Below, piece after piece: positions 34,571 through 60,712 of a DNA stretch of 64,000 nucleotides. A program made the position numbers and the translations under genes. Positions within the stretch are counted from its first letter, which is position 1. Each line of letters opens with the position of its first letter. Below the pieces are notes generated by a model. It searched no databases, was not told the origin of the DNA, and worked only from the letters and a program-made list of their open reading frames with translations. This stretch comes from Ectocarpus siliculosus (taxonomy: Eukaryota; Sar; Phaeophyceae; Ectocarpales; Ectocarpaceae), in contig FN649750.1 of the NCBI GenBank assembly GCA_000310025.1, positions 2,342,168-2,406,167 of the forward strand. Direction: 5' to 3'.

Positions 34571-34960
34571 CTGGTCGCGGTTGGAGTCGTATAAGCAGCG
34601 GACCGGCGGCAGGCGGCGGGCGAGCGTCAGGGCGGCGTTGCGGGAACACTTCTTTTCCTCTTCATCGTGGGCGTAGTCGATCGCGCGCCTGGATCTGCAG
34701 TTAGAATGGTCTACAAATCCTATCTTCGGGCGAAACTATCTGGCGTGGGTTTTCGTCGGGCCCAGAACGACGCGTTGTTATATCGCGAGCTCGCGTTAGT
34801 TCGTTCTCGACGCCTGTGGATTGAACGGAGTGATTATTGCTGCTGACGCTACGGTCACCGGACGTCGACCAATCCCGAATATTTCTCTCTTTGGAACACT
34901 AGCGATGGTTTCTCTTTTTTTTTTTTTATACATATATTTTCTTGGATTCGGTGAACCCCG
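34571..34960. other. No gene recognised
   Basis: The right boundary of the YR element should lie here, but no A1-type copy of 31840-32171 was found. It contains a T run (34915-34928). Confidence 0.4.
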
Positions 34961-34964
34961 GTTC

Positions 34965-35757
34965 GCCATCGGCACGGGTGCTTCCACTCATTGGCGCGTC
35001 CCGTGCTGATACGTGTTTTTTTTTTTTTTTTTCGATGCGTTGGATACGGTGAACTCCACTTGCCAACAGCGCGGGTGCTTCCACTCATTGGCGCGTCCCT
35101 CGCTGAAACTGACAGCACATATGCAGCACGGGTGCTTCCACTCATTGGCGCGACCCGTACTGATACTTGTACGCAGCGCGGGTGCTTCCACTCATTGGCG
35201 CGTCCCTTGCTGAAACTGACAACACATATGAGCACGGGTGCTTCCACTCATTGGCGCGTCCCGTACTGATACGTGTATGACTTCGTTTTCGATGCGTGGA
35301 GATCGGTTAATTCTACTCGCCAACAGCACGGGTGCGTCCACTCATTGGCGCGTCCCGTACTGATACGTGTACGGCGTTTTTGTTCTTTCTTTTTGAGATC
35401 GGTTAACTCTACTCGCCAACAGCACTCATTGGCGCGTCCCTTGCTGAAACTGACAACACATATGCAGCACGGGTGCTTCCACTCATTGGCGCGTCCCGTA
35501 CTGATACGTGTACGACTTCGTTTTCGATGCGTGGAGATCGGATAATTCTACTCGCCAACAGCACGGGTGCGTCCACTCATTGGCGCGTCCCGTGCTGATA
35601 CGTGTACGGCGTTTTGTTCTTTCTTTTTGAGATCGGTTAACTCTACTCGCCAACAGCACTCATTGGCGCGTCCCGTACTGATACGTGTACGACTTCGTTT
35701 TCGATGCGTTGAATTCGGTTAACTCTACTCGCCAACAGCACGGGTGCGTCCACTCAT
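34965..35757. repeat. Minisatellite, ten copies of a CACTCATTGGCGCG core
   Basis: Ten full copies of a core reading ACGGGTGCTTCCACTCATTG and then GCGCGTCCC occur, with an eleventh cut at 35757. Spacers are of at least three types: CTGATACGTGTACG, CTGAAACTGACAACACATATG, and a longer one with TTCGTTTTCGATGCGT and TACTCGCCAACAG. Types alternate in a higher-order pattern. The cut last unit abuts Gypsy remains. Confidence 0.9.
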
Positions 35758-38139: not shown

Positions 38140-39130
38140 CATGCCTGTCATCGGGGACCACTGTGCCGAAGGAAAGATAGACACACAAATTAGCCGCGCC
38201 GCGCGTGTCGATAGATAGTTCAAATCTCCCAATTTATGTCCGCCGAGCATGATCGAAGCACCATCGGCGCAAACCACATCCTGACGTCAATACCGTTAGC
38301 ACCTACAACCGTATGTGGTAGTTTTAGCGACAAGTTCTAAAGGGCATTATCCCAGACTTTTGGATCTGTTGTCCACGTTGTCACAGGCTGCCAACTTGGT
38401 GATATCTTTGGCTTCGGAGGACGCTACCATGGTCACCGGCTCCACCTGCACGATGTACGGCGGCTGGGCGAACCCTAGGCACCCGTCCGGACAGCTGAGG
38501 CTTTGTTGGGGTACGGCAAGCAAAGACGGAGGCAGGGTGGTGCGAGGGGGATCGATTAATCGTCGGAAACCAGTCTTTGTTGTCTACGTTCATCAAGCAA
38601 CCTAGATCGGTATGTTAATCTTCGAAGAGCGGGCAAAACGAGAGCCAGGTTATGATCGGGTTGATGCTTGTGGACTCGACAACCTCTCAATCAAGACGGG
38701 GATTATTTTTGTTTCATGTTTAGGCGCAGGGGATGCCCGATGGCACACGATTTGCTGAAGATGACTGCGCTTCGACGACCGTTTCACGACAGTCGAGTCT
38801 AGGCTAATATCTTCAGCAAGTCGACGATCCGCTCAAATTCTTGCACAACAGACGGAGTGATGATATTCGAAATTATTCTGTAGAGATCGCGTGGCAACGA
38901 CCAAATGATTTGGGAAGATATGCCGTAGAGGGCATTTTGTCGGGGGACTTACGATTGGACCATGGTAGTGGTTTGGGGTACAAAGGTTGGAGTTGGGGAA
39001 TATGGAGTTTGCCGGAAGAAGCGTGGGAGGGGGGCAGAAATGCGTTTTCATACACCAAGATATTGATGCAATGTCCGGTCGACTGGCGGACTGCATGGCT
39101 GAAAGGACAAAGAGCCACCCTGGCATAGCA
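38140..39130 (+). pseudogene. SDR 3' fragment (exon 6 plus flanks)
   Basis: An acceptor and exon equivalent at 38387-~38480 encode the SDR exon 6 blocks (L-A-S-E-D-A-T-M-V-T-G-S-T and G-G-W), but the reading passes the usual stop because of an indel after G-G-W-A. Both the upstream part (38140-38386, intron 5) and the downstream part (38485-39130) align with the reverse complement of about 13390-12480. Exons 1-5 are absent, so it cannot make an enzyme. Confidence 0.88.
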
Positions 39131-41029: not shown

Positions 41030-41425
41030 GGAATGGTCATGCGGTGTACTGTACACAATCTCCCCCCACCTTCTCTTCTTGCATCGCACCCACCCTCGCG
41101 GACAACCTTTCATTCCTGACAACCGTACACCCCACACGTCGCACATCGACCCCATCCTTCTGGCTAGGACGACGACCGAAATGAAGCGAAGATCTGTCTC
41201 GGAGAGAACGATGGGCAAATAAACTCCACTGCTTATCCCATGGTTGATGATGCGTCCTGCTTGCTGTTGAAACGTTCTCCGGAACCGTCGTGCGATGGAA
41301 CACTAAAAAAATGTTTTCCCGACCTTCTCCTACTTACCACCCAAACCACACCACGTGGACAACCCTTCACTCCCAACAACCGCACACCCCACGCGTCGCA
41401 CATAGACCCCATCCTCTCTTCACCA
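41030..41425 (+). repeat. Tandemly duplicated promoter-proximal block of CYP74-like copy 1
   Basis: A block with GACAACC-TTCA-TC-C-ACAACCG then ACACCCCAC-CGTCGCACAT and GACCCCATCC occurs at about 41095-41160 and again at about 41352-41415. The same block occurs once upstream of copy 2 (reverse complement of about 59225-59310). Conservation beside two diverged genes suggests a 5' UTR or promoter element. The tandem copy is unique to copy 1. Confidence 0.65.
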
Positions 41426-41684
41426 CCTACCCCTCTCCCACTTCCATACTACTTTCTCCTGCGACTAGGCTGAAAGACGCAGAGAAGGTGCCTAACAACA
41501 ACAACCGCATGCGGCTACTCTATTTTGTTGTCCTTGGTGGTGGTCCGCTTCTGGTCGCATCGGCCTTCACTATACTTGCCGTCTCCTCCTCCAACGTGCA
41601 GGAGCTGCTTCCTCCATCTCTTCGTCGCGGCAAGCTTCGACCACAACGCCGCCGATTCCCACCCCTTCACACCACAAAGTCAAG

Positions 41685-44600
41685 ATGGCCGCTGCTGCAA
41701 CGACGGCGGCTGAACCAGATCTTCTCGAGCCTACCGGCGTTCACCACCCGTTTCACAGCTTGTCTCCACTCACCGAAGCGCGGGCATGGGCGGCGAGGGA
41801 AGGACAGTACTTCAACGGCCTCATCGAGGCCAACGGCGGTGCATCGGTGTCCAAGGGGCACCCGGATCTTGCTGTCACGTTCTTGACAGATCACGCCAGC
41901 TGTGAATGGTTTTTCAGCCAGCGCCAAGAGGTCTTGGACCGGCAGGTATGTTGAGCATATGCATCCGCATCTAGTATACATGTTGACTATACGCGAACAT
42001 GCTCGTGCCGGAGATCAGGTGTTGTTTTCTATTCTTGCTTCCGCGCTTCAATGTTTTCAAACTAAAGTGTCGTGTTTGTGGGCCTGTGGCTTCGGCTCAC
42101 GATGGCATGGATAATGAGAGTGCTTGGTTTCCCCTTCGCATACAGTACGAAACGAATTGGATGACACGCATCTCAGAATTGAGCAATTTCGCCAAATTCT
42201 CCGCATTTTGGAAAAATAGTGCCGAGAAGACATTCCCGCCTCTGTTCGGGGCTCTCGTGTTCCACGCACGGGGAAGAAGCACAGTCACGTATATCCTCCC
42301 TTCTGTTTATTGAAAGTGTTGAGAATCACCATGGCTATTGACTACCAGTCAGCGCTGACTGGTACATATTCCAGTGGTCATCGTGCTTCTCGACGAAACG
42401 TTCGGACAGAAGCGACAGATTCCCGCAGGGACAAACTATAGAATGTGTATTGAACTCGAATTCGGCAATAAGATTGACCAAGACTTCTTCAATACATCCC
42501 TTCGACTGGGCTATTATCTCCGACAGATACAACGCCTTCCAGTAACTTCATGCAGCATATATATTTTTACACGCACCCAAGATCCGATGTCGTACGTCAG
42601 CCGTACATTCACCTTGTTCTCGATGTAGAATTGTTCACTGACTCGCGTTGATCGCGAACGGTTTTGTATGTGTCTTGTCATCCCACCAAGTTTATCCCAC
42701 CTCTCTTTCGCCATTCGCGCCCATGCGTGTCTGTTTGTACTTCACTCCCACGTGCGACGCGGGCGCAGGACGGGGCGTACTTCGGCCCTCTAAAGTGCAA
42801 GAAGCAGTACATCGGCGAGTCGCTACCCACTCTCGCCAGCAACCAGAAAGAGTCGCACCAAGTCCTCCGCGAACACAAACTCAGAGTATTCCGATCAAGG
42901 GTCCCCTTCGCGCAGTCGGCCATGACTAACGCTACCGACACCTTCTACAAGAATCTCAGGGACAACGGTACGTGAAGAGGCGCCCAAAATCCGCAAAACA
43001 AGCACGAGGGACCCAGCTCGACCGATGCCGATATTGGGTGTCTCCTTGGGGGGGGGGGGGAGCTGAGCAGTCCTGTTGCCACAAACAAGTCATCCACTTT
43101 GACGACGAAAACGTCCACCACCTAGGTTGGCCTATCCAGAATATGTAGGCCTACGGAGTTTACCGCAGGCTTTGTGGAGCGCGAAAACAAATGCTGAGCT
43201 ACATACAGTGTTGAATACCCCGCTGATGATTGTGTCCCTACCCCACTCTACTGCCGGGTCCTTCCCTCCCTCTTCTCTCCTCCTCGGACTGGTAAAGGCC
43301 TGGGGGAGTACACCTTGGCTTAAGGCTTCTTTCTGCAGCAGACGACACATTTCTTGCATGAGTGGATCTACGGCATGGGGGTGGAGGGTGGCCAGCCCCT
43401 CCCGCCCTTCAAGGACTTCATCAACGCTATCCCACTCGATGTCTCCGTGTAAGTGAGGCCTCGGATTGCGCTAGTGCAGATGACAAGGCGCTCTCGACAG
43501 GCGAAGTGCTTCGAAATCGGGTTCAGTTCGTTACACGTCTGTCTTATATGTAGTCCACTTTGTTGAGCAATGTTCGGCACGTGTATCTATATGTGGTTTA
43601 CTGTACAGCCTGTTCTGCTTGGTGCTCCACCGACGGAGCGAAGCCATTTCTTGTCCATTCGTCGTCCTACGAACTTGGTAACGTCGTTGTCGTCAACGAA
43701 ACGTCCGATCGCTCCAGACTGCTCGAGCTCGAGATGGACACCCCTCTTGCGCAGCTCGCGGCCACGTTCGCCCGAAAGTCGAAGAAGGCGTCCGCCGAGC
43801 AGCTTGCCTCCGTGGAGTCCATCGTCGAGTCCATCCGCTCGTCCGAGGTCTGGGCCGGCTTCGCGGAGATGCTCGAGGGCTCCAATGTGCGTACAGCTGT
43901 TGCTTCACGCAGAACAGGCTGTCTTTCGCGTTGATTCGTATTACCCTTTGTTGGGGAGCCGTGCATACCGTAGTCTTAGACATTGACCTCACATCCCTAG
44001 GAAGCGGGGACGGGTTACGCCGGGGGGGTGTTGTATATGTGTTTGTCTTCAGCACGGCAGACGTGTTGTGAACCATGCTCATGCTGCTGTCTTGTGTTTC
44101 TTGCTCAACCAATCCCCGTTGCCAGAGAGTTACCACCGAATAGCTCCGATCCCTGCAAACGAGCAACCGCCGCCAACATCAATACTACAAATGCCGGAAA
44201 CGACGACCTTTCAGCAGCCCCGTGCATTGCGGTCGCCCTTGCCACTGTTCCCACCTGTACAGCAACGGTCAGGTGAACACCAAGGATCTGGAGCGAGAGT
44301 TCATGTTCATCACGAACTTCCAGGCGGCAGCGGGGATGGCCAAGATCATGACTATCGTAGTTGCTACCCTGACGAACAACCCGGAGTTCCTAGAGAAGCT
44401 GAGGAAGGAGGTCGATAGAAAGGTATGTTGTGGGTTTATCTGCAGGAAATCAACAAGAAAAACATTGTTGATTTTATTACAGGGTGCACTGTAGCGTACG
44501 GCGTGCTTTCACGTCTATCAAAGTTGTTTTTTTTGTGCTAAACGTCTCCCGTGTTAAGGATACGCTGCCACATGACCGTCGTTACACCGCCGCAAATTGT

Positions 44601-46970
44601 TGGAGGATCGCACCGCCCCAGAGCACTATCTCAATCACTTTACTCACCTTCCGGTAATGACTTTCTCTCTTCTGCGGCAACGTATGTCAGGATTTGACGT
44701 TCGAGACGGTCAAGGGCGTAGAAAACTTCCCGCTGCTTGACAGTTTCCTCTGGGAGATCAACCGGGTGTTCCCCGTCCCAGCGTTCACCGCAAAGGTGAG
44801 AAACGCATGTTGCACTCCATCGTAGGTGTGTCATTTCGTCTATGGACATCCGGGTGTGTTTGGTGCTGAATAGTCGTGCTATCCACCACCTCCACCGTGA
44901 AACGCGTCATTTTCGAAGACGAGGAGGGACGGACGAAAACGGGGAGCTCAGTCCAATACTGGTGGGGGGAGAACTTTCTAACCAGCACATGACATGTAGG
45001 CACAGCATTACTCCCAGTACAGCGAAGGGTTTGGAGTCACACATCATACCATTCTGGAGGTGCCATCGCGTTGTCGTGAGTTCACCGCTCGCGGTACCTC
45101 CGCTCGACGTTGCCTGCGCACGCGCTGGTTGGTTGCCCCTGGCTTGCAGGAAGCCAAGATGGATGTCGTCGTGCCCTCCAGCTCCGACAGGAAGTACAAG
45201 GTGCGTGTGCTTGAAAAGGGCGAGTTGGAAGAGATCTCGGCTTGACGTAGGTAGCACTTCAGTCGCAGCACGTCGTCCACAGAAGCGGCGAAAATGTTCT
45301 TGTCCTTGGGTTCCAGTGTGTGTTTTATTGCTTTGTTTGCATCGACCGTGTTAATCGGTTGATCAATGAAAAGACGCCAGTCTCGGTGCGATTGCACACA
45401 CAAAAAAACTCTAAATATCTGCTTGTGGATGTAGAGATGTCCGGGTCGTCTGTTCCCTCTCTTCTTCACCCAGAGGAAGGTGGCAGTGCGTGTCCGTGTT
45501 CTGATCCGGCCATTATTAGAACCTTTTAGAAGGAGGTCTGATGACAACTGAGAAACCAACTGCATCGATCGGACACCAGGAGACGGGGTCGACGTACAAG
45601 TTTCCGGAAAATCAGATTGCTTCCCTCTCGGGAGCAATGGCAACATCGGCTTGTGCGTGTGTATTACTTCTACTTCTTTGTGTGGATATTGCTTCACGCA
45701 GGTCAAGAAGGGAGATGTGCTCATGTGCGAACAGGCCCTCGGGCAGATGGACCCGTCCGTCTTCGGCCCTGATGCCCGGGAGTTCAAACCCGAGCGCTTC
45801 GTGGGTAACCCGGAGCTCAAGAAAAAGGTGAAACCGACATTAGAATAATATGTAGATGATTTTGTTGAAGCGTGTTGTGGAGCGCGCCGTATGTTGCCAG
45901 TACCTCGCAAAACGGAGGGGTTCAATGTCGATTGTGCTCCATGTTTAGGTTGATGAGGGGCGGGCCGAATGATGACACCGCGATTCACCATGACCACGAA
46001 CGTGTGGTGACACAGAACTGATCCGCTGTAGATTGGTGAGGATCATGCAGCGTAAGATGTGCCGCGTGCTCGAACGTACCCAAAGCGTACTTTTTCCCGA
46101 GAATCGAAAACACTATTGCCCGTAGCATTACGTGCGGCACCCCTGTAAGATGAGCTTCAAGTTTCGACCGCGAACGTTCGTTGTGTCGATTATGTTGCTG
46201 ATATATGTTATGATGCAAGCTTCCTGCAACAAAGCGTTGAAATTGGTGTTCGTACCTCGAATGTATTTGGAAGTACCTGGACGTTGATAACGGTCGTACG
46301 CCGATTACCTGCTGATGACGTCGACGACGACCATGCCGCACGCTCGGCACAGGTCTTCGCCTACGGGTACGCCGACCACGACAAGGTAGACGGCGTGTGG
46401 GGATGCGCGGCCCACGCCGTCGGGCTGCTCGACGGTGTCCTCAAGATCGTTTACGGAAGGTGAGGCCAATGCGCAAGAACGTAGAATGTACTCCTAGATT
46501 TACCAAGCAGAATGTGCCTACATTAGGGGTTGGCGTGGGACACGAGCGAAACATTAGACGCTCGTGACATCGACGCCCCCGCTTCAGACCTAACGTTCGG
46601 TAGAGACCCCGGAGAAGAGATGCCTGTGCGTCAGATGGGAAGGGGGCCGGAGTTAAGGCAGGTGTGATTCTCTGTTCAACGGCGACTCAGCGAAAATAAA
46701 TAACGATGAGGAGAACCGACGGTCACAGCAACCCTCCCCCCTCGTTCTGCGACCCCGTCCGGGCATCCCTCACGGAACCCCTCATATCTCTCCTTCTAGC
46801 CCCCATGCGCACGAACAACGACCCGCCCTGTTTCACCCGTGTGCGGCAGGTGGGTGCAGGAGGCCGAGTGGGAGCTGACGAGTGTGCCGGTGATCTCTCC
46901 TGATGCGTTTGTCGCAACGGTCGGTCCGGCGGACCTGTCCTTCGCGAAAGTCACGTCGCGCAAGAAGTAA
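41685..46970 (+). CDS. CYP74-clan cytochrome P450, copy 1, ten exons
   Basis: Exons: 41685-41945, 42769-42967, 43325-43448, 43718-43886, 44273-44422, 44691-44795, 45150-45200, 45702-45827, 46353-46459, 46850-46970. They are phase-consistent and give 470 aa; the exon 3 start is the least certain, and the rest are supported by copy 2. Motifs: an I-helix T-N-F-Q-A-A-A-G in exon 5, K-helix E-I-N-R (E-x-x-R) in exon 6, D-P-S-V-F then P-E-R-F in exon 8, and a haem loop in exon 9 where G and the Cys ligand are separated by 12 residues (G-x12-C, W-G-C-A). That long loop is the hallmark of CYP74 enzymes, which rearrange fatty-acid hydroperoxides without O2 or reductase (allene oxide synthase, hydroperoxide lyase, divinyl ether or epoxyalcohol synthase). 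Product class cannot be told. An upstream leader (41488-41684) is out of frame with exon 1. Confidence 0.85.
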
Positions 46971-47439
46971 ACGGAGTCCTCAGACGCGGACAAACGTGCG
47001 GCGCCACAGCAAGGCGCGACTGACTGTGGCACGAAACACAACCAAATAATACGGGAGATGAGAAGCAAACATGTCTGCGTGCGTGTCCCGCAATACCAAA
47101 AATCCCGAGACCAGACCATTGGTTGTTGAATGTGTTGATATTGTAGACCCATTCTCTTTGTGATACTATGGCCATATTTCCGAAGTTATCGTGCTGACGG
47201 AACCAGGCGCGAATGTCCACCCCATGATGTGGATCTGGAAGCAGGAAGTTCAGAGGGCCCGCAGGTTACCTGGTTCTCGACACTGCAGCCAATCGGGCCA
47301 GCTTGTCGAGCCTAGGCAACGGAGGATCTATCACGAACATCGACTCCCCTCACCTATCCTCTAGGTGTTTGCTAGAACGCGTGACACGCCTAGAACGAGG
47401 TCTGGTCTTGTGAATGCCCGTCCTTTGGTGTGCATAGGT
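46971..47439. other. 3' flank of CYP74-like copy 1
   Basis: No gene recognised. Right flank of the last exon; part of the large inverted duplication ends or diverges here. Confidence 0.4.
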
Positions 47440-47940
47440 AGACCAAAGGTTGTACTGTGTGCATGATGTTTCGAAGCTAAGATACGTCCGGACCAAGATT
47501 TTGTTGTGCATGATGGTTCAACGCTGTGATGCGTACTGTTTCATGTGGCGTGTAAATGCGGCGGTTTCGCGAACGAAAAAGGGTTGATACATGCCAAGTA
47601 CTGGAGGTCAACGGAGTGTCCCTCGTCGAATCGTGGGTTTTTGAGGTATCTCGCCGATTTGCACAACAAAATGAGGATCGCGTGTTGCGTATTCGAGGGG
47701 ATGTATTTTCTCCGGTACCAACGAAGTGTTTGGTGTATCTTTCGTTCGGTTCTGTTCATCTATGGTGTCCGCGTGTGGTGGTCGTTGTCGTCGTCAAATC
47801 GTTGTGTTGAAGTTGGTGACGTAGTTGCGCGTAACCGTGGGGTTGTTCGCGTTGTTTCATACGCTTCTTCGACCGTAACTCTCGTAAACGGTTAGAGTTC
47901 AAGGTACACCTATACTGGACGGGAGGTTACCCTACGGTGT
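47440..47940 (+). repeat. Inner arm segment of the large inverted duplication (left)
   Basis: It aligns with the reverse complement of about 53230-53610. Shared words include TGTTTCGAAGCTAAGAT, GTCGAATCGTGGGTTT, TTCGAGGGGATGT and TTCGGTTCTGTTC. No frame is conserved, so this is duplicated flank and not a gene. Confidence 0.8.
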
Positions 47941-48002
47941 TTTGCCACCAAATAAGGTGGTTCCCAGTCCAATTTTGGGTTGATGACCTATACCTCTAGA
48001 GG

Positions 48003-48480
48003 GGGGGGGGGGGGGGGGGTACCCATAGTCGTGCATGCGGTAGTCCTTTGACCATTGACCTCCCATCCCTACAAAGCCGGGACGGAGCACGCCGGGTTCT
48101 CACCGGACCAGGCTCTCACATCACCAAGCGCGAAGCGCCGTGAGGTATTTGGTGAGTCGCATGAAGGGTGAGCTGCATCCTGCTAAGGGTGTTCGGCATC
48201 TTGTGCTTACTTCCTTGCGTACGGATGACAGCTACGTATGACTTAATTTACTTTCTGGTGCTTTTACTTCCAGAGACAGTTGTAAGCACTGTGTAACTGC
48301 CTCGAGGAAGCTTGACCATTTTAACACAACGTGGTGCGATCATCCCCCGTTGCGCGGAGTGAGGTTTCTCCACCCCGCACAACATGATCTACTCGACCAC
48401 CATTATGGTTACCGCCAAAAAAAAAAACGAGGTAAAAAAAAAAACGGTAACCTGGTTGCCGAGTTCACGAAGTGAATTGG
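48003..48480 (-). mobile_element. LINE-type 3' end, copy 4 (minus, G run on plus)
   Basis: It begins on plus with 19 G (48001-48019), then GTACCCATAGTCGTGCATGC and the shared tail, and extends to about 48480 where it meets the tandem array. It aligns with 3815-4310 over the whole length and with 27373-27631. It sits in the left arm of the inverted duplication and has no counterpart at the matching place of the right arm (near 53.1 kb), so it arrived after the duplication. Confidence 0.75.
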
Positions 48481-48676
48481 CTTGTTTTACAACGTCGTTG
48501 CCAAGCGACGAAAACCCAATCCCGATGGCAAACACCGAGTGGGGGGCTTGTTTTACAACGTCGTTGCCAAGCGACGAAAACCCAAACCCCGATGGCAAAC
48601 ACCGGGGGGGGCGGCTTGTTTTACAACGTCGTTGCCAAGCGACGAAAACCCAACCCCGATGGCAAACACCGGGGGG
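48479..48676 (+). repeat. Three tandem units of about 66 bp with built-in hairpin
   Basis: Units start at 48479, 48545 and 48613, each with GGCTTGTTTTACAACGTCGT followed by TGCCAAGCGACGAAAACCC and then ATGGCAAACACCG plus a G run. CGTCG and CGACG around TTGCCAAG, with GTTTT and AAAAC outside, form an imperfect hairpin in every unit. Confidence 0.85.
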
Positions 48677-48739
48677 AGAGCAGAAAATCAAACACAGACT
48701 CCCTATTCCTCTTATGTATGCATGTGAGGGCGTCTTTTT

Positions 48740-49460
48740 CTCCTGGTGTTCGAGGTGGGAACCGAACGACGCAGAGATCAGGGCAAGGTGCGTCATATTG
48801 TCCAGTTTGTGGTCTTCAGACGCACACTCTGGGGCATCTTGTGCCGAAGCTGTGCTAAAAATTGCGGCAATATTTGTCGCTTAGGATATATATGGACATG
48901 CACAGGTAAACGTTCTTCGATCGACTGCTCTTCTCTGGGCGTGTCCCAGGCCATGTTGTGTGTTCCTGCGTGGTGCATGTTGATCAGGTTGGTGACGCGT
49001 AAGTCCTCCTGCGTGGGTGGTGTGTCTTTCGGCGTCAGCTGGCGAAACGCTCAAAGCCGTGGCTGTCTATTCTGAATTCTTGACGATATTGTGCAAACTC
49101 GAGGCTCTCGGCGGGTGATGTCGCCTGGCTGTTGTGGTTGGAACACCACCTAGGGATTATCGGTGTATTGGACGGCAGCACGATCACGAGCATCACCCAC
49201 CTTTGCCTATCTGTGCCCAAGATTGACGTGTCTGTCGATGGTAGCACATCCGGTAAACACAACGAAACGGCCCACACCCCGACAGTCCACTTTGGCAACC
49301 AAAAGTGTGTGCGCAAGGGCTGCGCCTGGTTTGGGAGAAGGTACATACTGTAGGTAGCACGCCGGGCTGAGCCGCTGTGGTGGCCTTACCACAAGTGCTC
49401 GCTGAGAATCAAGACAGTAGTCAGTTCGGGAGGCGCAGCGCAAATTTGTGAGTGAGGCTG
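48740..49460 (+). other. Conserved unknown segment, left arm (C-P-V-C-G-L frame)
   Basis: It aligns with the reverse complement of 52070-52890. Near 48786 a frame reads C-P-V-C-G-L-Q-T-H-T; the right copy reads C-P-V-C-G-L-E-T-R-T. Further conserved protein-like blocks are W-L-E-H-x-L-x-I-I-G-V and V-R-K-G-x-A-W-F. The frames carry several shifts. I do not recognise the family; it may be a decayed gene with a zinc-binding start, duplicated with the P450s. Confidence 0.55.
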
Positions 49461-50530
49461 CAGAACAGGCGCGCAGTTACGAAAAAACTGATCGAGGCCC
49501 ACTCCATTATTTTGGTCGAAGACGAGCCCAAGTCGTCCATATTCTTCAAAGATTTTCTTGTTATTGGGCTGTTGCACCCTGTTGACTTTCGTATTTCTTG
49601 CTAACAATACAATACGCAACAACTCATTCCGCATTATCCCGAAAACATGGTGTGGCGAACATTGATGGGAGTTATCGCCCTCCGGGACTCCCTGACTCTC
49701 TCCTGGTCGTGATCCTCCAGCAGCCCCAACGACCGCGCGTTCGTCATCCGTGCTGCACGACTCCAAATGGACTAGCTTGGTTAGGGGGAGTGGGTAGCGT
49801 AGGTGGAGGAGTGGCGGTATTTCTTGGTCGACACACTCCCAAAGCTACCCCGATTCAAGTGTATGGTGTATCGTTCGGTACTTCATTCATAATACAACAA
49901 CACGATTTCCTTGCTGTAACCGGACCCGTTCTGTACGCATGTGGAGCCACTCAGAACGATGAGATAAATGGCGCTGTTACTCCTGGATGACCCCAGGACC
50001 ACGGGTTGATGGTTGAAGATGAGAGTGAGGGAGAGGCAGCCTGGCCATCCGTCTCTCGAGAAAACCATGACAGCATCTATCGCTAAGCATGGCCCCAAAG
50101 AATCAACCGCCTACATTGCTCGGTGTCCCTTGGAAGCTGTGTTCGCGATGATAGCTTTTCGTCCTAAGGCTGCTTGGCCCTTCTTCTTCCTTGGGTCCGA
50201 AGGTGCTGCGTCTGTCCACCGCAATGCCGGAGATGGATTCCAGCCTCCGATGCTGGAAAGAATTTGCCCCGGTGTGAGCGAGGCGGTCGTTGCTCTAGCA
50301 GATGCGTAATGTCCACACATTTCTGCATTCCGCGCTGTTGCCGAGTACTCTCCGCGGCCCAGCGTATCAGTTTGGGTGAGACCCAAGGGGCACCAGTCTA
50401 TTCTTCTGTATCATTTTCCCGCAGCGTCGGCGGAGCCACTCCAACCTGCAACCAATTAAATTACAACCATGACTATTCTGGTTCTCTGCAATGGCAGAGG
50501 CATGAAATCGACTGAATCCTAACGCGAACC
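49461..50530. other. No gene recognised; no partner in the right arm
   Basis: Open frames at 49598-49990 (+), 49766-49386 (-) and 50013-50309 (+) have no domain I know. The segment has no inverted counterpart between 51.3 and 52.1 kb, so it looks like an insertion in the left arm or a deletion in the right. Confidence 0.4.
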
Positions 50531-50534
50531 CTAA

Positions 50535-51270
50535 CCCCAAACCCAACGCGACAGGTGCTATGTTGGCGCTGGGTCGATAAGGTCTAGGTTGTTTTGTTGT
50601 CCTTGGCGCTAGATTGGTGTTGATCGGACAATGTGAGGTGAATGGGGCGGCAAAGATGTAGGTTAGCCTTGGTGCGATAGATCGGGTTAGGGTTTCTGCT
50701 TGGACAGATGCTTTGTAGGTTTGTTCCGTTCCTGACGCGGGTGGGTGCTACTGCTGTAGGTTGGCGGTCCTACGCATAGGTCAAGGTGGGTCTTGGGTGG
50801 TAAACTGTGCTCGCGCGAGTGTGGGTGCATGGCTAATGTGCACACCCCTGGGTGTATCAAATATTTTCCCATCTCCAAAGATACTGAAGGAAAGAATGCC
50901 GGGCTCCCCGTATCCTTTCCCCCGCTACCCTAGAGCTAACGAGAGGTTGATATTCGATACTCCCACACTTGGCAGTTCCACGTATTCAGACCTGCGCGAG
51001 CACCGCTTACCACCCAAGCGCGACCCAGGTCTACTCCAAGCGCCACCCAACTTAGCACCCACCCACGTCAGAAACAACCTATTGTCGCAACTCTCTGAGC
51101 AAATACCAACCTATGCAGATTTTATCATACCAACACCAACGTAGCACCAATACCGGCCCATCCACTTAGACTGTCCCATCAACGCCAACCTACAGTAGGG
51201 TCAATGCCGCCACAACAACCTAGAACTTACCCACCCGGCGCCAACCTACAGCAGTAGTACCTGTCTGGGC
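50535..51270. repeat. Centre of the large inverted duplication
   Basis: About 50540-50670 aligns with the reverse complement of about 51130-51255. Shared words: GTTGGCGC, TCTAGGTTGTT and TTGGTGTTG, many built on TAGGTTGGCG. About 450 bp of unrelated spacer lies between. Short CCCTAAC/TTAGGG-like words occur nearby (50520-50545, 50683-50695) but do not form an array. Confidence 0.65.
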
Positions 51271-52069
51271 CACGGAGAGTCCTCGGCAACCGCGCGGAAC
51301 GCAGGCGTATGCGGAACGTGTGGACCTCCCGTATCTACGAAAAAGACAACCGCCTCGCTCACCACCGGAAATTGTTTCTACAATGGGAAACAATATCAAT
51401 CCCCGGGACTGCAGCAGACGGACGCAACACCTGTGGACTCAAGGAGGAGGAAGGGCGAAAAAGCCAGAGACTACAAAGCGATATCGCAAACATATTGCCA
51501 GGGGATCTCAAGCTGTGTAGGCGACTGATTCGTCGGGCAGGGTTAGATTGGCCGTAGATGTTGTCATTGTTTTCTCGAGATACAGAGAGGGAGACACACA
51601 GAGAGAGAGAGAGAGAGGGAGAGAGAGAGGGAGAGAGAGGACCAGCGCGCCTCTCCCGCTCACCCTAACCTTCCACCATCATCCCTGGGGTCCCACGCAG
51701 TGTTTTTTCCCACCGTTCTGAGGGTCACCGCATGCCGACAGAATGGGACCGCTGAGCGAACAAAAAACATTCTTGGTGACAAGATTTGAAGCGTTTCATC
51801 GAGAAATTGGAGCGAACCGAGGTGGCTAGGGAGTGTGTCATATAAAAAACATCACCACTCCTCCACCCGCTCTACCCACACCCCCCAGCTAAATTAGTTG
51901 CATTTGGATCGTGTGCCGCGGGTGGCGAAGGAGCTGGCGTTGGGGCGTGGGTGATGCTAGAGGTGCACCATGAGGGGCGAATCAGGGAGTCTAGGAGGGC
52001 GACAACCTGTCCGCCACGCCAAGGTTCCGGGTAAATCCCGCATGAAGGCTTTTGGTGTATCGTGTTCTC
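51271..52069. other. No gene recognised; (GA)n microsatellite
   Basis: A GA-rich run occupies about 51580-51640. Otherwise only short frames. Confidence 0.5.
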
Positions 52070-52890
52070 AGTTAGCAAGAAACACGAGGCATCAACAGGA
52101 TGCGACAAGCCCAAGAACCTCTTTCTATATAGGACGACTCGGACGGTCCTTCGACCCAATAATTCGAATTGGGCCTCGGCCCGCTGGTGACGTTTCTTAG
52201 CTCCGGCCCTGTTCTGTCACTACACGTTCGTACTCCGCAACCCCCAGAACTGAGCAGACTGTCTTGCGTCTGCAGCGAGCACCTGCGGAAAGCTTGCCAC
52301 AGCGGCTCAGTCCGACGCGCCACCAACCTATGATATCGCTTAAACCAGGCGCCGCCCTTCCGCACAATGGTTTGGTCACCAAGAGTGCTATCGGGCGTAG
52401 ACTGTCCATCCACATTCTGTCTTCCAGCGTATGCTACATGGGCACAGACAGGCAGAGTCGCGTGATGCGCCTGGTGGTGTTGCTCTTCACGACACCGATG
52501 ATCACTAGGTTGTGTTCCAACCACAACCACTCGGCGGCGCTCCCACCTAGAGCCTAGGGATTGCACAACACCATCACAATACTGAGAATAGATGGCCTCA
52601 GGCGCTTGTGTTTTTGCCAGCTCACGCCGAACGACTATGCTAACACGCTCGCTACAGGCACAAACTCGATCAACATGCACGCAGGAACACAAAACATGGC
52701 CTGGGACCAACTCAGAGAGGGGCAGTCCATGAAAGACGTCTACCCAAGTATCCAGACATACACATACTGTACGTGCTATTTGGCCCGCTATTATTATCGC
52801 TGGACGAAAATGAGAAAGACGGCTTCTGCACAAGACAGTCGTGCGGGTCTCAAGACCACACACTGGACAATGATACACCTCGCCCTACCA
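52070..52890 (-). other. Conserved unknown segment, right arm
   Basis: Inverted partner of 48740-49460. The minus frame from 52878 is open for 268 codons and starts with C-P-V-C-G-L-E-T-R-T. It also keeps the G-G-A-W-F and A-R-R-x-E-P-L-W blocks. Longer open than its partner, but the two copies agree only in parts, in changing frames. Not recognised. Confidence 0.5.
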
Positions 52891-53099
52891 TCAGCGCAGT
52901 TGCGTTCCCACCCTCAACACCCGGAGCAAAGGCGCTCTCATATACATACATACGAAGAAGCCCAGTAGGCGAAGTATATCCCATTTCCTGCTCTCCCTCG
53001 AGGGGGCATCAGCCCACAATTTCGCAGGGTACGGACGATACCTTTCTTTGGTGGAAATACCACGGAGCGCAAAACCAAGACAGTACTTTGAACACTAAT

Positions 53100-53612
53100 G
53101 TCGCAACCAATACAGTACACCTTGCACACTAACGTCGCGAGACTCCTCTCCGCAGGTACTTGGACATTCACCTTGTACCGGTCTCGGTCGAACAAGTATT
53201 TGATACAGCACAAAGGTCACCACTACAAACAACAACACCAACAACGCCAACAACGCCAATAAAATGATGACGACGACGACAACCGCACGAGAACACCATA
53301 CGTGGAACAGAACCGAACAATACGTAAAGCACTTCGTTGCCACCTGAAAACATACTTCACATCCCCTCGAACACACAATAAACGATCTACATGAAACGTA
53401 CAAACTGGAGTGACACCTCAGAAACCCACGATTCGACGAAGGACCCCGTCGACACTCGATACTTCACGCGTGTGGCCCTTTTTCCTTCGCAAAATCGCCC
53501 ATTGCACCTCACATGAAACCGGACGCACATCTTAGCTTCGAAACACCATGCACACCACACAGTCTTTGGTCGATGTATGCAGACCAAATGACAGGCATTC
53601 ACAAGACCCGGC
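53100..53612 (-). repeat. Inner arm segment of the large inverted duplication (right)
   Basis: Partner of 47440-47940. A GAC/AAC-type triplet run (about 53220-53280) interrupts it. No gene. Confidence 0.75.
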
Positions 53613-54098
53613 CTTGCAATAGCGTTTCACACGATAATTTACAGTTGACTCTAGCAAACGGTAGGTGGGCGGGGGAATTTGGTCTTCGCCATAGACCCTC
53701 AGTTGCCCTAGGCTCGACAAACTGGCCCATTTCGCTGCAGATTCCAGCAACCAGCGATTTTCGGGTCCCCTACACTTCCTATTTCAAGACCCCAAGACGC
53801 GGAGTGGACAACACATGTCTTCTCGTGTCTGGTTCCACCAGCACGACATATGGCCTCAGTTTCTCAAAGAGAATGGCCCAATTAGACACAACCTTATGTA
53901 GTCAATTGTCTGGTCTCCGATATTTTTCATCGTGGAGCACACACACAGGACGTTTCAGAACACCGCCAAACTAAGCTGGCTGGCTGGCTGCGCCTTCTTG
54001 TCTTGCTTATATACATCTCCGTTTTTCTGTTTCTGTCTTGTGCCACAGTCAGTCGCCTTCCGTGACGCAGCTACTTCGTCTGCGCCTTAGGTTCCCGC
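53613..54098. other. 3' flank of CYP74-like copy 2; no gene recognised
   Basis: Short frames only. Confidence 0.4.
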
Positions 54099-57000
54099 TT
54101 ACATCTTCTTACGGGACGTGACTTTCGCGAAGGACATGTCCGCCGGACCGACCTCTGCGAGAAACTCGTCAGGAGAGATCACCGGCACGCTCGTCAGTTC
54201 CCACTCTGCCTCCTGCACCCACCTACCGCACACGGGCGAAGCAGGGGGCGGGGGGGTCATTATACAAGTACGCGTTCATGGGGGATAGAACGAGAGAGAG
54301 AGAGAGAGAGAAGGGTTCCTTGAGGGGTGCCCGGACAGGAGGGCAGAACGAGGGGGCCATCGGTTCTCCTCATTGTTATTTGTGTTAGCTGAATCACCGT
54401 TGAACAGAGAATCACACCTGCCTTAACTCCTACCCCGATCCCGACCCCACGCACAGGCGTCCCTTCTCTGGGCTATCAATATCGAACGTTAGGTCTGCAG
54501 CGGGGGCGTCAATGACACCGGCGTCTAATGTTTCGCGCAAATTCCACACCGATCCCTACGGTGGGCGCTTTCTGCTTGGCAATCTAGTACAGTCGTACGT
54601 CCTTGCACACGGATTCACCTTCCGTAGATGATCTTGAGGATGCCGTCTAGCATTCCTATGGCGTGCGCCGCGCATCCCCATTGGCCGTCTACCTTGTCAT
54701 GGTCGACGTACCCGTAGGCGAAGACCTGTGCGGGGTTGTGCGGCACGGTCGTCATCATCAGGTGGCGTGCGACCGTAATCAACGTGCTCTTGTTGGGTAC
54801 GAACATCACGACCAAAGCGTTATGATGGGAACCTTGTACACACCATACCTCAGCAACATCATCGATACCGAGAACGTTCACAGCCAGAAATATGAGGAGC
54901 ACATCTACTCACAGGGGGTGCTGCAGGCCATGCTACTGGCGGTAGTCTGTTCGACCCGGAACGAAACCTACACTGGTCGGCCCACTCCTCATCAGCCTAA
55001 ACGTAGGGCGCAATCAACATCCAATCCCCACATACAGCCAGGTGCTGGAAACATGCGGCATTCCAGCGCGCACCACGACCACTTCAACAAAGGCCTCTGC
55101 GTTTGTTACATATTGTTGGTGGATTCACCTTTTTCTTGAGCTCCGGGTTGTCCACGAAGCGCTCGGGGTTGAACTCCCGGGCGTCAGGGCCAAAGACGGA
55201 CGGGTCCATCTGCCCGAGGGCCTGTTCCATCATGAGTAATTCGCCCTTCTTGACCTGCGTGAAGGAACAAACACGCGGAGAGTACGAAGTCACACACATG
55301 CGCACGAGCCGATGTAGCTATTGCTTGCAAGGGAACCCATCCGTTTCCGCGGAATTTGTACGTGGAAGCGTTGTCCGGTCTGTGACGGTTGGTTTCTCGC
55401 TTCTGTTTCGCGGCTTGATTGAGGCAGGCTCTGTTATCAGACTTCGTCGCAAACGGTAGTCTTGTCTGTAAATAAAGCCAGATCAGAAGACCGGACACTC
55501 GCTGTCACCGTTCTCTGTGTCAGGGAAAGAGGGTATCAACCCGGTCAAGCAAACGCACATACACAAAACACATACCTTCAGGACGGAGAGGACGAGATAT
55601 TTTTCGCGGCTTCTGTGGACGTACTGCGACTGATGTGTTGTATACGGTTAGCCCCTAGAACCTCTGTCAACTCGTCCTTTTCTAGGGCACGCACCTTGTA
55701 CTTCTTGCCGGAGCTGGTGGGCACGACGAGATCCATCTTCGCTTCCTGCGAGCCAGGGGCAACCAGCGTGAGTGCGGACGGAGGAGGAGCGAATTCACGA
55801 CAAAGAGCTGGCAACGTCCCTGAAGAAAGCTATGCTGCGAAGTGTTGTTGTAACCATAGGCCATGTGCTGGTTACGGGATTGTTCCCCTAACCCTATTGG
55901 CCCGAGCTACCCGTTTTCTTTCGTCCCTCCTCTCCTTTGAAAAATAGGCACTTTACGGTGGAGATGGATAGCACGACTACGTATCAGCACCAAACAGGCC
56001 TCGATGCCCAATGTATCGAAAAGGCACACCTGCTATAGAGTGTTATGCATTTCTCACCTTCACAGTAAACGCAGGGGCCGGGAACATCCGGTTGATCTCC
56101 CAGTGGAAGCTGTCGAGCAGCGGGAAGTTTTCGGCGCCCCTGATAGACTGGAACGTCAAATCCTGAGGTTGGTGGTCACAGAGCAGAGAAGAAGATTGGC
56201 GAAATGTGTGAAATACCAGTTGGTTTGTGATAGGTGTTTGCGGCAGTGCTCCTACAACAAGCTGGCGTCGGCGGTAAACTCTACGAGGGAGACGGTGATC
56301 ATACGGCGGCGTAGCCTTAACACTGGAGACATTCGGCACAATATCAATTCTTGAGAGATGTGACGCACGTAGAACGCTACAGCAGAACCCGTGATAATCG
56401 AGATATGTTGTTCTTTTTATCCTGCATTTAACCCCACACTCTACCTTGCCGTCGACCTCCTTCCTCAGCTTCTCTAGGAACTCCGGGTTGTTCGTCAGGG
56501 TGGCAACTACGGGCATCATGCCCTTCGCTATCGCCCCCGCCGACTGGAAGTTGGTGGTGAACATGAACGATCGCTCCAGATCCTTGGTGTTTACCTGGCT
56601 CGTCGTCGTACAGGTGGGAACAGCAGTGGCAGGGATAACGACAGTGCACGGGGCTGCTGTGAGGTCGTCGTTTCTGGCATTTGTAGTGTGACTGTTGGCG
56701 GTGGTCGTGGGGTTGATCGGCTCGAGCCTTGGCAGGGATAGGAGTGTTTCGGGTGCAATCTTCGGGCTGTTTGACTGCCGGCGGGGATTGATTGAGCAAA
56801 CAAACAAGAGACAGCAGGACAAGCATCGTCCACAGCCAAGCGCAAACCGCCTAATGCTGCGTGAAGCACGTACGTTGGAGTCCTCGAGCATCTCCACGAA
56901 GCCGGCCCAGACGTCGGACGAGCGGATGGCCTCGGCGATGGACTCCACGGAGGCAAGCTGCTCGGCGGACGGCTTCTTCGACCTTTGGGCGAGCTTCGCC

Positions 57001-59163
57001 GCGAGATTCGCAACAGGGGTGTCCATCTCGAGCTCGAGCAGTCTGGAGCGAGCGGAGTATTCGTTGACGACAATGACGTTGTCAAGTTCGATGGACGATA
57101 AATGAATGAGGGATCGTTTCGTTGCGTAGGTAGAAAACCGAGCAGAATAGGTTGTGACCACTCAAAGAAAAACAACGAATATCACTGTAGTCTGGTCCAC
57201 CGTAGGTGCACGTTCCGGAGTTTGTTCACCAAAAGGGGCTACAGCACAGACCGGAGTGTATGGGACTGAAAGGGCCTCTCAGTCAATCCCTTCGCCTGCG
57301 GGTCGCTCAAAAACACAGTCATATCATCAGCACTATCGTAGTCCGCGGCCTCACTTACACGGAAACGTCGAGTGGGTTAGCGTTCATGAAGTCCTTGAAG
57401 GGCGGGAGGGGCTTGCCACCCTCCACCCCCAGGCCATAGATCCACTCGTGCAAAAAGTGTATCGTCTGCTGCAGAAAGAAGTCGTAAACCAAGGTGTACT
57501 CGCCAAGGCCTTTACCAGTCCCAAGAGGAAAGAAGAGAGGGACGGAGGGGGCGTGGGAGAACAGTGATAGGGTAGGGACACAATCATCAGGAAAATGTGG
57601 GTAGCTCAGTCAGTTATTTTCGCACTCCACAAAGCCTGCGGCAAACTCTAAAACACTAGGAGCAGTTAGGTGGTGAGGTGGTGGCGTCGTCATCAACGTG
57701 GATGACTTGCTTGTGGCACCAGGACTGCTCAACCCCCCCCCCCCCCCCCTCTAGGAGGAAATGAAACAAAAAGGGTGTGACATGGACAAATTTGGTAAAT
57801 TAAACAACAGCGAAAAAACGATCGCGATAATTGGGGATAGATGGTGGGCACAAGAGGCCCTAAAGGACGGGGATAAGATGTGCAAGAAATTTTTATGGAG
57901 TTTGTGGCAGAAACGTAAAGAGCTCCCAAATGTTGGTGGTGTCTCTAGTAGGGGTAGGAACGGTGCTCCGACTCGAAAGGGACGCGTGGTCAATGGTCAA
58001 ATGACTACGGCAAGCAACAAATGAGTACCCCCCCCCCCCCCCCCCCCACCCATTGGNNNNNNNNNNNNNNNNNNNNNNNNNNNNNNNNNNNNNNNNNNNN
58101 NNNNNNNNNNNNNNNNNNNNNNNNNNNNNNNNNNNNNNNNNNNNNNNNNNNNNNNNGGAGAGAAGCAACCCATTGCGGAGAGAAGCAGCTCACTCCCGCT
58201 GACCATATGTCCTGAACTCAATTGAGTCAGTCTACAGTATGTTGAGAAGCACACTGGACTTTGGACCAGTCAGCGCTGACTGCTACAGTCCAGTGGTCAT
58301 CAACGTGCTGCTCTACACTCTCAATAAACAGCACGGAATAATCTACATGACTGCTTCTCCATGTGTGGTGCGCCAGGCCCCGAAAAGCACAACGCGGTGT
58401 CGGCAAATATTTCCGAAAAAGCGGGGAAGCGGAGAAATAGGCGAAATTGCTCAAATCTGTGGGCATGCCAGCGTTTGATCCGTCTCGTGTTGTATGCGGA
58501 GAGGAGAGCTGGCACGCTCGGTATCCATGCCGCGGCGAGCGGAAGCCACAGGCACGCGCATATCCGACTTGCCGACACAAACTCAACCCTTTTGTTTGAA
58601 AGAAATTGATGAGCGGAAGCAACAAACACATGTGGATATCTCTACAGCAGTCAGGCTGTTCGCGTACATGTGGTGCAAGCATGATTTACCTGCCGATCCA
58701 AGACATCTTGGTTCTGGCTGAGGAACCATTCGCAGCTGGCGTGATCTGTCAAGAACGTGACAGCGAGACCCGGATGCCCCTTGAACACCGATGCGCCGCC
58801 GTTGGCCTCGATGAGGCCGTTGAAGTACTGCCCTTCCCTCGCCGCCCATGCCTTCGCCTCGGATAGTGGAGACAAGCTATGAAACGGGTGGTGAACGCCG
58901 GTAGGCTCGAGAAGACCTGGTTCGGCAGCTGTTTCGGCCGTCTTGACTCTGTGGTGGGGAGATGTCGTGGGAATCGGCGGCGCTGCCGTCGAAGCTTGCA
59001 GCAACGGGCAGTTGGAAGAAGCAGCGCCTACACGCGGCTTGGGGGAGGTGGAGACGTTGCGCGCGGTAAGTGCCGATGCCGCGAGAAGCAGACCACCACC
59101 AAGGAGTACCAAAAAGAGCGGCCGCTGCAGCGGCCGTGAGCGGTTGTTGTTGTTGTTAGGCAT
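54099..59163 (-). CDS. CYP74-clan cytochrome P450, copy 2, exon 2 missing in assembly
   Basis: Exons on minus: 59163-58690, [exon 2 not found], ~57482-57359, 57042-56874, 56594-56445, 56162-56058, 55745-55695, 55254-55129, 54725-54619, 54222-54099. Exons 4-9 have exactly the lengths of copy 1. All keep GT-AG ends and no stop was seen inside them. Motifs are retained: E-I-N-R, D-P-S-V-F, P-E-R-F, and the haem loop G-x12-C. Exon 1 has a full N-terminus: M-P-N-N-N-N-N, a hydrophobic run F-L-V-L-L-G-G-G-L-L-L-A-A-S-A-L, then a Pro/Ser-rich stretch, which suggests a signal or bipartite plastid leader. Exon 2 (66 codons in copy 1, containing the substrate-channel N-terminal helices) should lie where a LINE tail and a 100-N gap are. 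Whether the locus is functional depends on the gap. Confidence 0.8.
54293..54312. repeat. (GA)n microsatellite in last intron of copy 2
   Basis: A short GA run between exons 9 and 10 of the minus-strand P450, absent from the matching intron of copy 1. Confidence 0.7.
57733..58047 (+). mobile_element. LINE 3' end, copy 5, flanked on both sides by C runs
   Basis: A 17-C run (57733-57749) precedes a frame (57761-58024) with D-K-F-G-K-L, L-W-S-L-W-Q-K-R-K-E and G-R-V-V-N-G blocks matching the LINE C-terminus at 26600-26780. The stop is followed by GAGTAC and a 20-C run (58028-58047). It is antisense to the P450, in the intron that followed exon 2. In P450 copy 1 the same intron has just one 13-G run (43048-43060) and no LINE. 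Confidence 0.85.
58057..58156. other. Assembly gap, 100 N
   Basis: Placeholder gap. ACCCATTG occurs directly left of it and again 12 bases to its right, followed on the right by a GCGGAGAGAAGCA/GGAGAGAAGCA repeat, so the two contig ends may overlap or be a collapsed repeat. Confidence 0.99.
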
Positions 59164-60712
59164 CTTTCGCTGCGTCTTTCGGTCTCGTCGGAGGGGGAGA
59201 AAGCAGAATGGAAGGGGTGGAAGGGTGAGCGAAGAGGGAATGGGGTCGATGTGCGACGTGTGGGGTGTGCGGTTGTCGGGAATGAAGGGTTGTCCGCGTG
59301 GGCGGTGTGGTAACCACGAGCTCTCGGGAGATTTTTAGTCAACCTCACCACAGTTTCCGAGAATATTCCAGGAGCACACGAACGCACCCTCCACCATGAA
59401 ATACCGCAGTAGAGATTATTTCCTCGTCGCCCTCTTCTCCCCTCACTCGGCTACCGTCTTGCTAGGACTCCCTACCGTAGCTCTCTTTGATGCGGCGAAT
59501 GCCACTCTGCAGGGGGACAAGCACCGAAACGTCTAAACGCATCGTACCGGCCGCCATCGGAGAGACCACACAAAAAACTGACAGTCCAGTGCTGAAAAAT
59601 CCCGCCGACAGATCTCCCGAACCCACCCTTCTGGGCGTGTTCACCATAGGAGCAAGCGTCAATGTGAGTTACATTCGGTCTTTCCTCTTCACCTGCCGCC
59701 GTCCTGTCGATGGTATCTTGCTACCGGGGGGGGTCTCTCAGCGAAGTCCGTACTAATATGATGATATCCCTGCGCCTGTGACCCCAAGGGTTCTGCTGGG
59801 ATTTTCTTTTGATCAGAAAAGGAGCAAGCAACGTTCTGAATCCCGTGCAAATATATAGACCAGTGTTCCGATTTGTGTTCAACCACGAAGAAGACGGGAC
59901 GTGGGTGTGGGTGTGTGTGCAGAACGTTTTGTGTGGCTTCCTGTGGCCGTTATGTCTGCCAGGGAGTGTGGATTGCCTGCAGCGTGAAGCTTCGAGCGTG
60001 GCAGTGTAAAGTTTCGCCAGCGGCTTGGCTACTCCGAATGGGGCGATGCTCCATTGCAAAGCTTGAGGACGCCAAATCCAGCCGAGCCCCCCTCCCTGCA
60101 TAACTAGGACTCGCTTTCTCATATCATGTCCGACTCCGAGCCCGGTGAATCAATACTCAGAAATCACTTGTCGTTGTGGGGCGCACGTATAGAGACAAAA
60201 CGGTCCTTTGCCCAACTTCACAGCTCTCAAATGTATGAAGGGAGAGGGGGTTGGGCAGACAATTTTCTGTTCAGGGGGAAAAAGCGCCGTCCGTACAACG
60301 TAACGGCCGTAAGTTACTCTGTAGCGGTGTTAAGGTTTGCGAGGTCACGCACTAGACGACTGGGGCGGCCGACGTGCTCGTAGCCACTCGAAAAAAAAAA
60401 AGAAGAGCCAGAAGCTGACATTTTTTTAATGTTGTGCGCGGTTTGCACTCCCAAATCCCCACACGCTACAATCACACATTTTGTGTCGGGGCACAAACAT
60501 AACGTTCACAGTTCACAACGGTATTATTTTCGTTTGCTTTCGATGCTCAAGGTTCAACAACACTGAAACCCAGTTCGCAACCCTACCAAGAACCAAAGCT
60601 CTTCTTGTACAGTAGAGGTACCAAGGGTACGAAGAATATGCGTAGGAACATGTGGCGAAAATCTCCCTGCAGGTGGAGATGCAACTTCCGAAGGTACAAC
60701 TAACGCGAAGGC
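59164..60712. other. 5' flank of CYP74-like copy 2, then no gene recognised
   Basis: 59225-59310 is the conserved leader block shared with 41095-41160. From 59400 to 60712 only short frames in mixed phases were seen. Confidence 0.45.

Follow-up and report, generated by a model that had tools for sequence, protein, structure and literature searches.

How did two related cytochrome P450 (P450) genes come to lie tail-to-tail in the genome of the brown alga Ectocarpus siliculosus, and does each still encode a working enzyme? The locus lies within the window, a 64,000-nucleotide stretch of contig FN649750.1 (assembly GCA_000310025.1, positions 2,342,168 to 2,406,167; C25:2342168-2406167 in the 189-Mb, 492-contig genome searched here), in which an initial annotation had proposed a large inverted duplication carrying two P450 genes of the CYP74 clan, hereafter A and B. 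The genes are found to occupy the arms of a real, old palindromic duplication, a P450 gene segment that was copied in mirror image.

An inverted duplication with collinear arms

Comparison of the window with itself by BLASTN identifies positions 41,064-59,435 as an inverted duplication, with main blocks that are 67-77% identical and collinear from the outer limits (41,064/59,435) to the centre. The left arm (41064-50906, + strand) spans ~9.8 kb and the right arm (50908-59435, - strand) ~8.5 kb, close to the 9 kb each estimated initially. From the outside inward, the paired blocks are 41203-42376/59435-58252 (71.6% identity), 43048-43892/57747-56868 (75.4%), 44067-45306/56834-55589 (71.4%), 45589-45968/55366-54977 (77.3%), 46104-47875/54954-53185 (68.7%), 48706-49856/52959-51814 (67.0%) and 50048-50362/51586-51265 (71.0%); a weak 43-bp inverted block (40,923/59,487) lies beyond the main arms. 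The paired features cited in the initial annotation were recovered: the 5′ leaders noted at 41095 and 59300 (41090-41155/59305-59240, 92.4% identity), the proximal 3′ flanks (70.8% identity over 908 aligned bases) and the segment at 48740-49460 / 52070-52890, which falls within the 67.0% block. Since the similarity extends into introns, 3′ flanks and the distal arm, a resemblance confined to exons is excluded.

The arms also carry private insertions, as had been proposed. Nine gaps of at least 50 bases interrupt the arm alignment, eight representing sequence absent from B and one sequence absent from A; because more insertions lie in arm A, the midpoints of the blocks shift from ~50.2 to ~50.9 kb. 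One insertion private to arm A by these gaps (48001-48676, + strand) is a young repeat: in the best 40 of 2,386 candidates, which were scored, the 39 long matches other than the insertion itself are 97-98% identical. The 3′ flank and distal portion of arm A (46971-50906), homologous to 50908-54098, show no coding-frame signal. The possibility that the distal arm (47-50.9 kb) holds another gene was considered and rejected: matches there occur in many frames and on both strands, and the mismatches lack strong codon periodicity.

Divergence of the arms and the palindromic centre

Outside the exons, the arms differ at about one quarter to two fifths of aligned positions. Identity in the introns is 72.3% across 2,911 aligned bases (Jukes-Cantor distance of 0.346), the proximal 3′ flank has a distance of 0.37, and the distal arm is 67.9% identical over 1,915 aligned bases (0.418); the 5′ flank matches more weakly (61.5% over 434 aligned bases, 0.54). 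These figures leave aside the surroundings of exon 2 and the 48.0-48.7 kb insert, where the global aligner force-aligned unrelated sequence (30.3% of 317 in the gap region, 45.9% of 157 in exon 2 of A and 51.4% of 138 in the insert). The silent-site distance between the copies (dS of 0.27 by NG86 or 0.38 by YN00) is near those of the introns, 3′ flank and distal arm, and this similarity points to one old event without recent gene conversion. The A and B proteins share 83.6% amino-acid identity over 396 codons, with a dN/dS of 0.33 (NG86) or 0.21 (YN00). At 0.2-0.3, the exons are still constrained overall.

The centre repeats that had been noted at 50540 and 51250 correspond to the opposite halves of the middle of the palindrome itself. 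The sequence at 50550-51265, with its axis at ~50,907, is 72.5% identical to its own reverse complement (64.6% over 728 columns by BLASTN). Its self-alignment score of 186 compares with at most 27 for 100 mononucleotide shuffles and at most 61 for up to 60 other window positions, chosen at random with those containing N skipped. No spacer is detectable at the ~50,907 axis; homology, including that of non-coding DNA, reaches the axis itself.

The arrangement is consistent with an ancestral segment, containing one P450 gene, that one event would have copied in mirror image with no visible spacer. To do so, a nascent or broken strand would fold back, or would use a short inverted repeat to switch to the opposite strand, and then copy itself. 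The copies would afterwards have diverged neutrally outside the exons, by ~0.35 substitutions per site in the introns, and gained private insertions, and overall purifying selection would have kept the exons of both. Taken as a whole, this history is the best explanation of the locus and, in our judgement, a probable one. Template switching is supported for inverted junctions in yeast by PMC10766183. The locus resembles the products of origin-dependent inverted-repeat amplification (ODIRA) and related models in being an inverted duplication attributable to template switching or fold-back. However, ODIRA concerns inverted triplications in yeast, whereas the present case is an old palindrome of two copies that is fixed in an algal chromosome.

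Gene models and possible relationship to CYP74 enzymes

Gene A (41685-46970, + strand) is modelled with ten exons: 41685-41945, 42769-42967, 43298-43448 (or 43325-43448), 43718-43886, 44273-44422, 44691-44795, 45150-45200, 45702-45827, 46353-46459 and 46850-46970. Gene B (54099-59163, - strand) has nine visible exons (59163-58690, 57509-57359, 57042-56874, 56594-56445, 56162-56058, 55745-55695, 55254-55129, 54725-54619 and 54222-54099), of which the first includes an in-frame leader, MPNNNNNRSRPLQRPLFLVLLGGGLLLAASALTA. Splice sites and reading frames define both models, and the start of exon 3 in A was taken from comparison with B and with a third gene of this type, on contig C34 (487.7-501.5 kb; hereafter the C34 paralog, or C34). 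All internal exon borders are GT-AG, and the tail-to-tail arrangement is supported. The exon counts of ten and nine given initially were reproduced, but the nine of B reflect a 100-N run at the place of exon 2. A first model, with exon 3 of A beginning at 43,325 and that of B at an internal CAG, was dropped; the C34 paralog shows an earlier start.

By its sequence, the gene is a P450, in agreement with the initial annotation. Spliced copy A matches Pfam p450 with 45.4 bits (cut-off 22.8, E 6.3e-12); the 470-aa protein with the short exon 3 was the query here and in the solved-structure and genome protein searches. Placed by eye, the ExxR motif and haem region read EINR and WGCAAHA in both A and B, and EILR and WGCAAH in C34. 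The I-helix is FMFITNFQAAAGMAK in A and FMFTTNFQSAGAIAK in B, so the substitutions reported there between the copies are real, and by eye neither form (TNFQAAAGMAK / TNFQSAGAIAK) contains an acidic-Thr pair. Enzymes of the CYP74 clan are not known to carry the monooxygenase acid-alcohol pair in helix I. Among solved structures, copy A retrieved two CYP74A sequences first (1.7e-7), followed by prostacyclin synthase (2.9e-7) and then BM3-type P450s (best 60 of 162). The nearest structures are thus CYP74A allene oxide synthase (2rch etc.) and prostacyclin synthase (3b98, 3b99), in an order that varies by query, and CYP74A aligns over A residues 259-390, a region that includes the I-helix, ExxR and the PERF stretch. 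Both of these enzymes rearrange peroxides without outside oxygen. Membership in the CYP74 clan is plausible for the present genes, and the predicted enzyme would rearrange fatty-acid hydroperoxides, as CYP74-clan P450s do.

Other searches make this assignment less certain. A profile of A, B and C34 placed prostacyclin synthase first (5.4e-9) and CYP74A second (1.1e-8; best 60 of 123), the same three members gave no NCBIfam match below E 0.06, and an exon-by-exon genome scan with Pfam p450 returned 18 matches, none within the window. As the CYP74A and prostacyclin synthase scores are nearly equal, the clan is not proven; the clan named initially is weakly supported. The genes are not filed in the CYP74 family proper because Gln replaces the I-helix Asn (FNxxGG) at the aligned position: CYP74A reads FNTWGG, whereas copy A reads FQAAAG. 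The haem stretch, KVDGVWGCAAHA, also differs from the CYP74 consensus.

Pieces of C34 are 39-65% identical to A, and over 391 sites C34 is 53.5% identical to A and 56.0% to B. The genome protein search returned these three genes of the present type and one more row, a P450 on contig C17 (E 0.79). Brown-algal enzymes of the CYP74 clan have already been published, among them CYP5164B1 (EsEAS, an epoxyalcohol synthase) and CYP5164A3 (EsHPB, a hydroperoxide bicyclase) from Ectocarpus siliculosus (PMC10813956, PMC12843491, PMC10864609). According to PMC10813956, CYP5164B1 and the bicyclases have since been moved to a separate clan, CYP5164. These too are brown-algal, CYP74-related P450s that act on fatty-acid hydroperoxides, and a CYP5164 label for the present genes, which under the usual P450 naming rule would call for sequence identity above ~40% to CYP5164A3 or B1, would be a guess. 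The available portions of these papers do not mention a mirror-image pair.

State of the two copies

In gene B, a 100-N run (58057-58156) occupies the expected position of exon 2, bordered on one side by a poly-G run and a repeat terminus (57978-58046). The genome protein search gave matches to exon 2 in A and C34 only. Exon 2 of B may lie in this assembly gap or may have been lost. The SRS-1 region, which PMC10813956 names as a product determinant, would be located in exon 2.

The leader differs between the copies, as originally noted. In B it is in frame and hydrophobic, MPNNNNN...FLVLLGGGLLLAASALTA, and would suit a secretory or plastid route. The sequence ASAF/ASAL resembles heterokont plastid-targeting cleavage motifs. 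In A, the arm alignment places the corresponding hydrophobic leader, MRLLYFVVLGGGPLLVASAF, at 41509-41684 (+ strand), where a 7-base difference puts it, together with the upstream ATG at 41509, out of frame with the enzyme. Copy A has GTG at the start site of B; its own in-frame ATG, at 41,685, corresponds to ACG in B. The C34 paralog begins near this internal Met, closely preceded by a stop, and no leader can be seen in it. The leader DNA is common to A and B, whereas C34 begins at the Met present in A, and either state of the leader may be ancestral.

Based on the comparison with C34, exon 3 starts at 43,298 in A and at 57,509 in B. From this start, A reads GLGEYTLA*GFFLQQ (the asterisk marks a stop), B reads GLGEYTLVYDFFLQQ (GLGEYTLVYD) and C34 reads GMGDYTTVYDLFLQQ (GMGDYTTVYD), and the stop of A sits where B and C34 both read V-Y-D. 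It falls in a 27-base stretch (43298-43324, + strand) with an AAG acceptor at its end, use of which would skip the stop in frame. Copy B would be the likelier intact copy, provided that its exon 2 lies in the gap, and copy A would be either decaying or rescued by the 27-base skip. At the 391 sites that can be compared with C34, 64 residues differ between A and B; 20 of these are derived in A, 10 are derived in B and 34 are assignable to neither (p = 0.10). Copy A looks more relaxed than B, though not significantly.

The initial suggestion that the pair could make different oxylipins fares less well. Copy A carries a stop and, relative to B, a frame-shifted leader, and exon 2 of B is absent from the assembly; the idea that two enzymes make different oxylipins is unproven, and the case for it is weakened. 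For oxylipin biology, the pair should not count as two enzymes before transcripts and the missing exon are in hand. It informs on gene duplication in this genome and is no proof of two working enzymes.

Weighing of alternative explanations

A single locus assembled twice, in opposite directions, might produce such a palindrome, and arm B does contain the 100-N run. With ~28% of intron sites different between the arms and private insertions in addition, an assembly fold-back is ruled out. A direct tandem duplication with later inversion of one copy has in its favour that direct tandem paralogs also occur in the genome (20 of 39 neighbouring pairs, see below). However, homology passes through the axis with neither a spacer nor a leftover direct segment, so that an inversion would need a breakpoint lying precisely on the border of the copies, and the array of light-harvesting complex (LHC) genes described below would require the same coincidence repeatedly; we consider this order of events improbable. 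It has also to be asked whether the mirror arrangement was kept since convergent transcripts form double-stranded RNA that regulates P450 genes. The genes are indeed tail-to-tail with homologous 3′ flanks, but these flanks and the distal arm are about as diverged as the introns, which leaves no long perfect duplex, and such a role is scarcely to be expected.

A further explanation concerns the genes themselves: both copies would be functional with split roles, their products set by the I-helix and their cell location by the leader of B or the internal Met of A. The dN/dS of 0.21-0.33 between the copies, the ExxR (EINR) and WGCAAHA haem region present in both, and the I-helix difference are in keeping with this proposal, as are the correspondence of the internal Met of A to the start of the C34 paralog, with its stop just upstream, and the in-frame acceptor that can avoid the stop in A. 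Use of that acceptor nevertheless requires a shortened exon 3, at the cost of residues conserved in B and C34, the upstream ATG at 41509 in A is out of frame, and exon 2 of B is not seen. We regard a division of roles as unlikely.

The single mirror-image duplication, followed by neutral divergence with constrained exons, is preferred, and several points weigh against it or against the fates proposed for its copies. No short inverted repeat or tiny loop is visible at the axis, where the centre is only 72.5% self-identical; a priming repeat or few-base loop would not be visible because the axis has decayed. A fold-back or template-switch origin would be deduced from its product, and the event cannot be replayed. 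A dN/dS below 1, along with the in-frame alternative acceptor, permits a functional A, and the greater relaxation of A relative to B lacks significance. A deletion may have removed exon 2 of B, in which case neither copy is intact. Finally, both the gene models and the fate proposed for copy A come from splice-site and homology reasoning.

Mirror-image pairs elsewhere in the genome

Brown-algal P450s of this sort and inverted duplication are both already known, and the recurrence of mirror-image duplication is of more interest than the P450 pair itself. In the same window, a pair of genes at 12929-25343 is arranged head-to-head (left gene on -, right on +) with 70-80% identity in blocks of at least 190 bases, an axis at ~19.1-20.0 kb and a centre that has decayed over ~1.5 kb. 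From their motifs, the genes at 12.9-25.3 kb are presumably short-chain dehydrogenases (SDR), a name with which a PF13561 match at C25:2358988 is consistent. Tail-to-tail P450 pairs are also present at C17:348460-355660 (spacer of ~3 kb, match limited to short pieces) and C167:56385-71878 (spacer of ~9 kb). The LHC array (C16:240-282 kb) consists of ten PF00504 genes in strict strand alternation. In the 20 kb at C16:238001-258000, which contain four of these ten genes, inverted axes lie near 243.5, 247.8 and 252.3 kb. The last, the only one so tested, is self-palindromic over 251,412-253,162 (84.7%), with an innermost stretch that matches weakly. This second nearly spacerless palindrome implies that the process recurs in this genome. 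On the small contigs C92, C232 and C488, LHC genes are mostly in direct order, unlike the alternating genes of C16, and 18 of 19 rows share a PF00504 score of 127.6 bits.

Neighbouring paralog pairs were counted by family searches with seven queries (P450, LHC, SDR, lipoxygenase, sulfatase, sulfotransferase and CYP74-type). Inverted pairs account for 19 of 39 within 25 kb (17 of 25 on C1-C33) and 14 of 26 within 10 kb (14 of 18 on C1-C33), and three small contigs with LHC genes contribute 11 of the 20 direct pairs. For the SDR query, the best 18 of 67 candidates were scored, and the SDR pair of the window is uncounted, only one of its genes having matched. On C8, the two lipoxygenase genes of a direct pair narrowly exceed the 25-kb limit. 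The PAP2 family search gave no match in the genome, HSP70 showed no close paralog pair as judged by eye and was excluded from the count, and the repeat domain PF19114 was searched and likewise excluded. PF19114, the EsV-1-7 Cys-rich motif typical of brown algae, has 150 matches in the genome (150 of 880 candidates scored) and none in 14 prokaryotic control genomes.

According to PMC2547482, tandem duplicates are in parallel orientation in 72-94% of cases in vertebrates, ~80% in Arabidopsis and 88% in rice; the inverted share of 19 of 39 found here compares with ~6-28% published there, under other definitions. It is a real, if still doubtful, possibility that mirror-image, near-spacerless duplication is a main route of gene-family growth in this genome, in contrast to the direct-tandem rule of animals and plants. 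Repeated end over end, it would yield alternating arrays such as the ten LHC genes of C16, and the P450 and SDR pairs of the window would be two aged products. This proposal is suggestive and not established, and a number of points tell against it: one array supplies 9 of the 19 inverted pairs, the sample is small, the families were self-chosen and the distance limits set after the hits were known, and paralog pairs need not stem from one duplication.

The C16 array probably has its counterpart in the LI818 cluster described for Ectocarpus (Esi_12 to Esi_22; supercontig 0085 of linkage group 16), a close set of highly similar LHC genes for which concerted evolution and/or recent duplications have been invoked (PMC3008699). 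Neither 'orientation' nor 'inverted' appears in the main text of that paper, whereas in the C16 array strands alternate strictly and, in the 20 kb, one centre is palindromic. Judged by titles and the opening parts of abstracts, none of the papers listed in the literature searches presents mirror-image copying as a mode of duplication in brown algae; in a paper on Ectocarpus transposons (PMC12477816), the terms 'palindrom' and 'gene duplicat' are absent from the portion available. Why inverted tandem duplicates are so scarce among vertebrates is treated as an open question in PMC2547482, where long inverted repeats are suggested to be unstable. If about half of the sampled neighbouring paralogs are truly inverted, with palindrome centres of several ages still readable, this question would become testable.

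Other features of the window

Two identical 238-base direct repeats (31602-31839 and 32172-32409) adjoin a 589-aa open reading frame (32451-34220, - strand) that by eye resembles a tyrosine-recombinase-type mobile-element gene. A minisatellite-like array of diverged direct repeats is found at 34942-35757. Finally, an inverted match of ~0.9 kb (12482-13379 / 38164-39122, 72% identity) overlaps the left SDR arm and may represent either a fragment of a third gene copy or a repeat.

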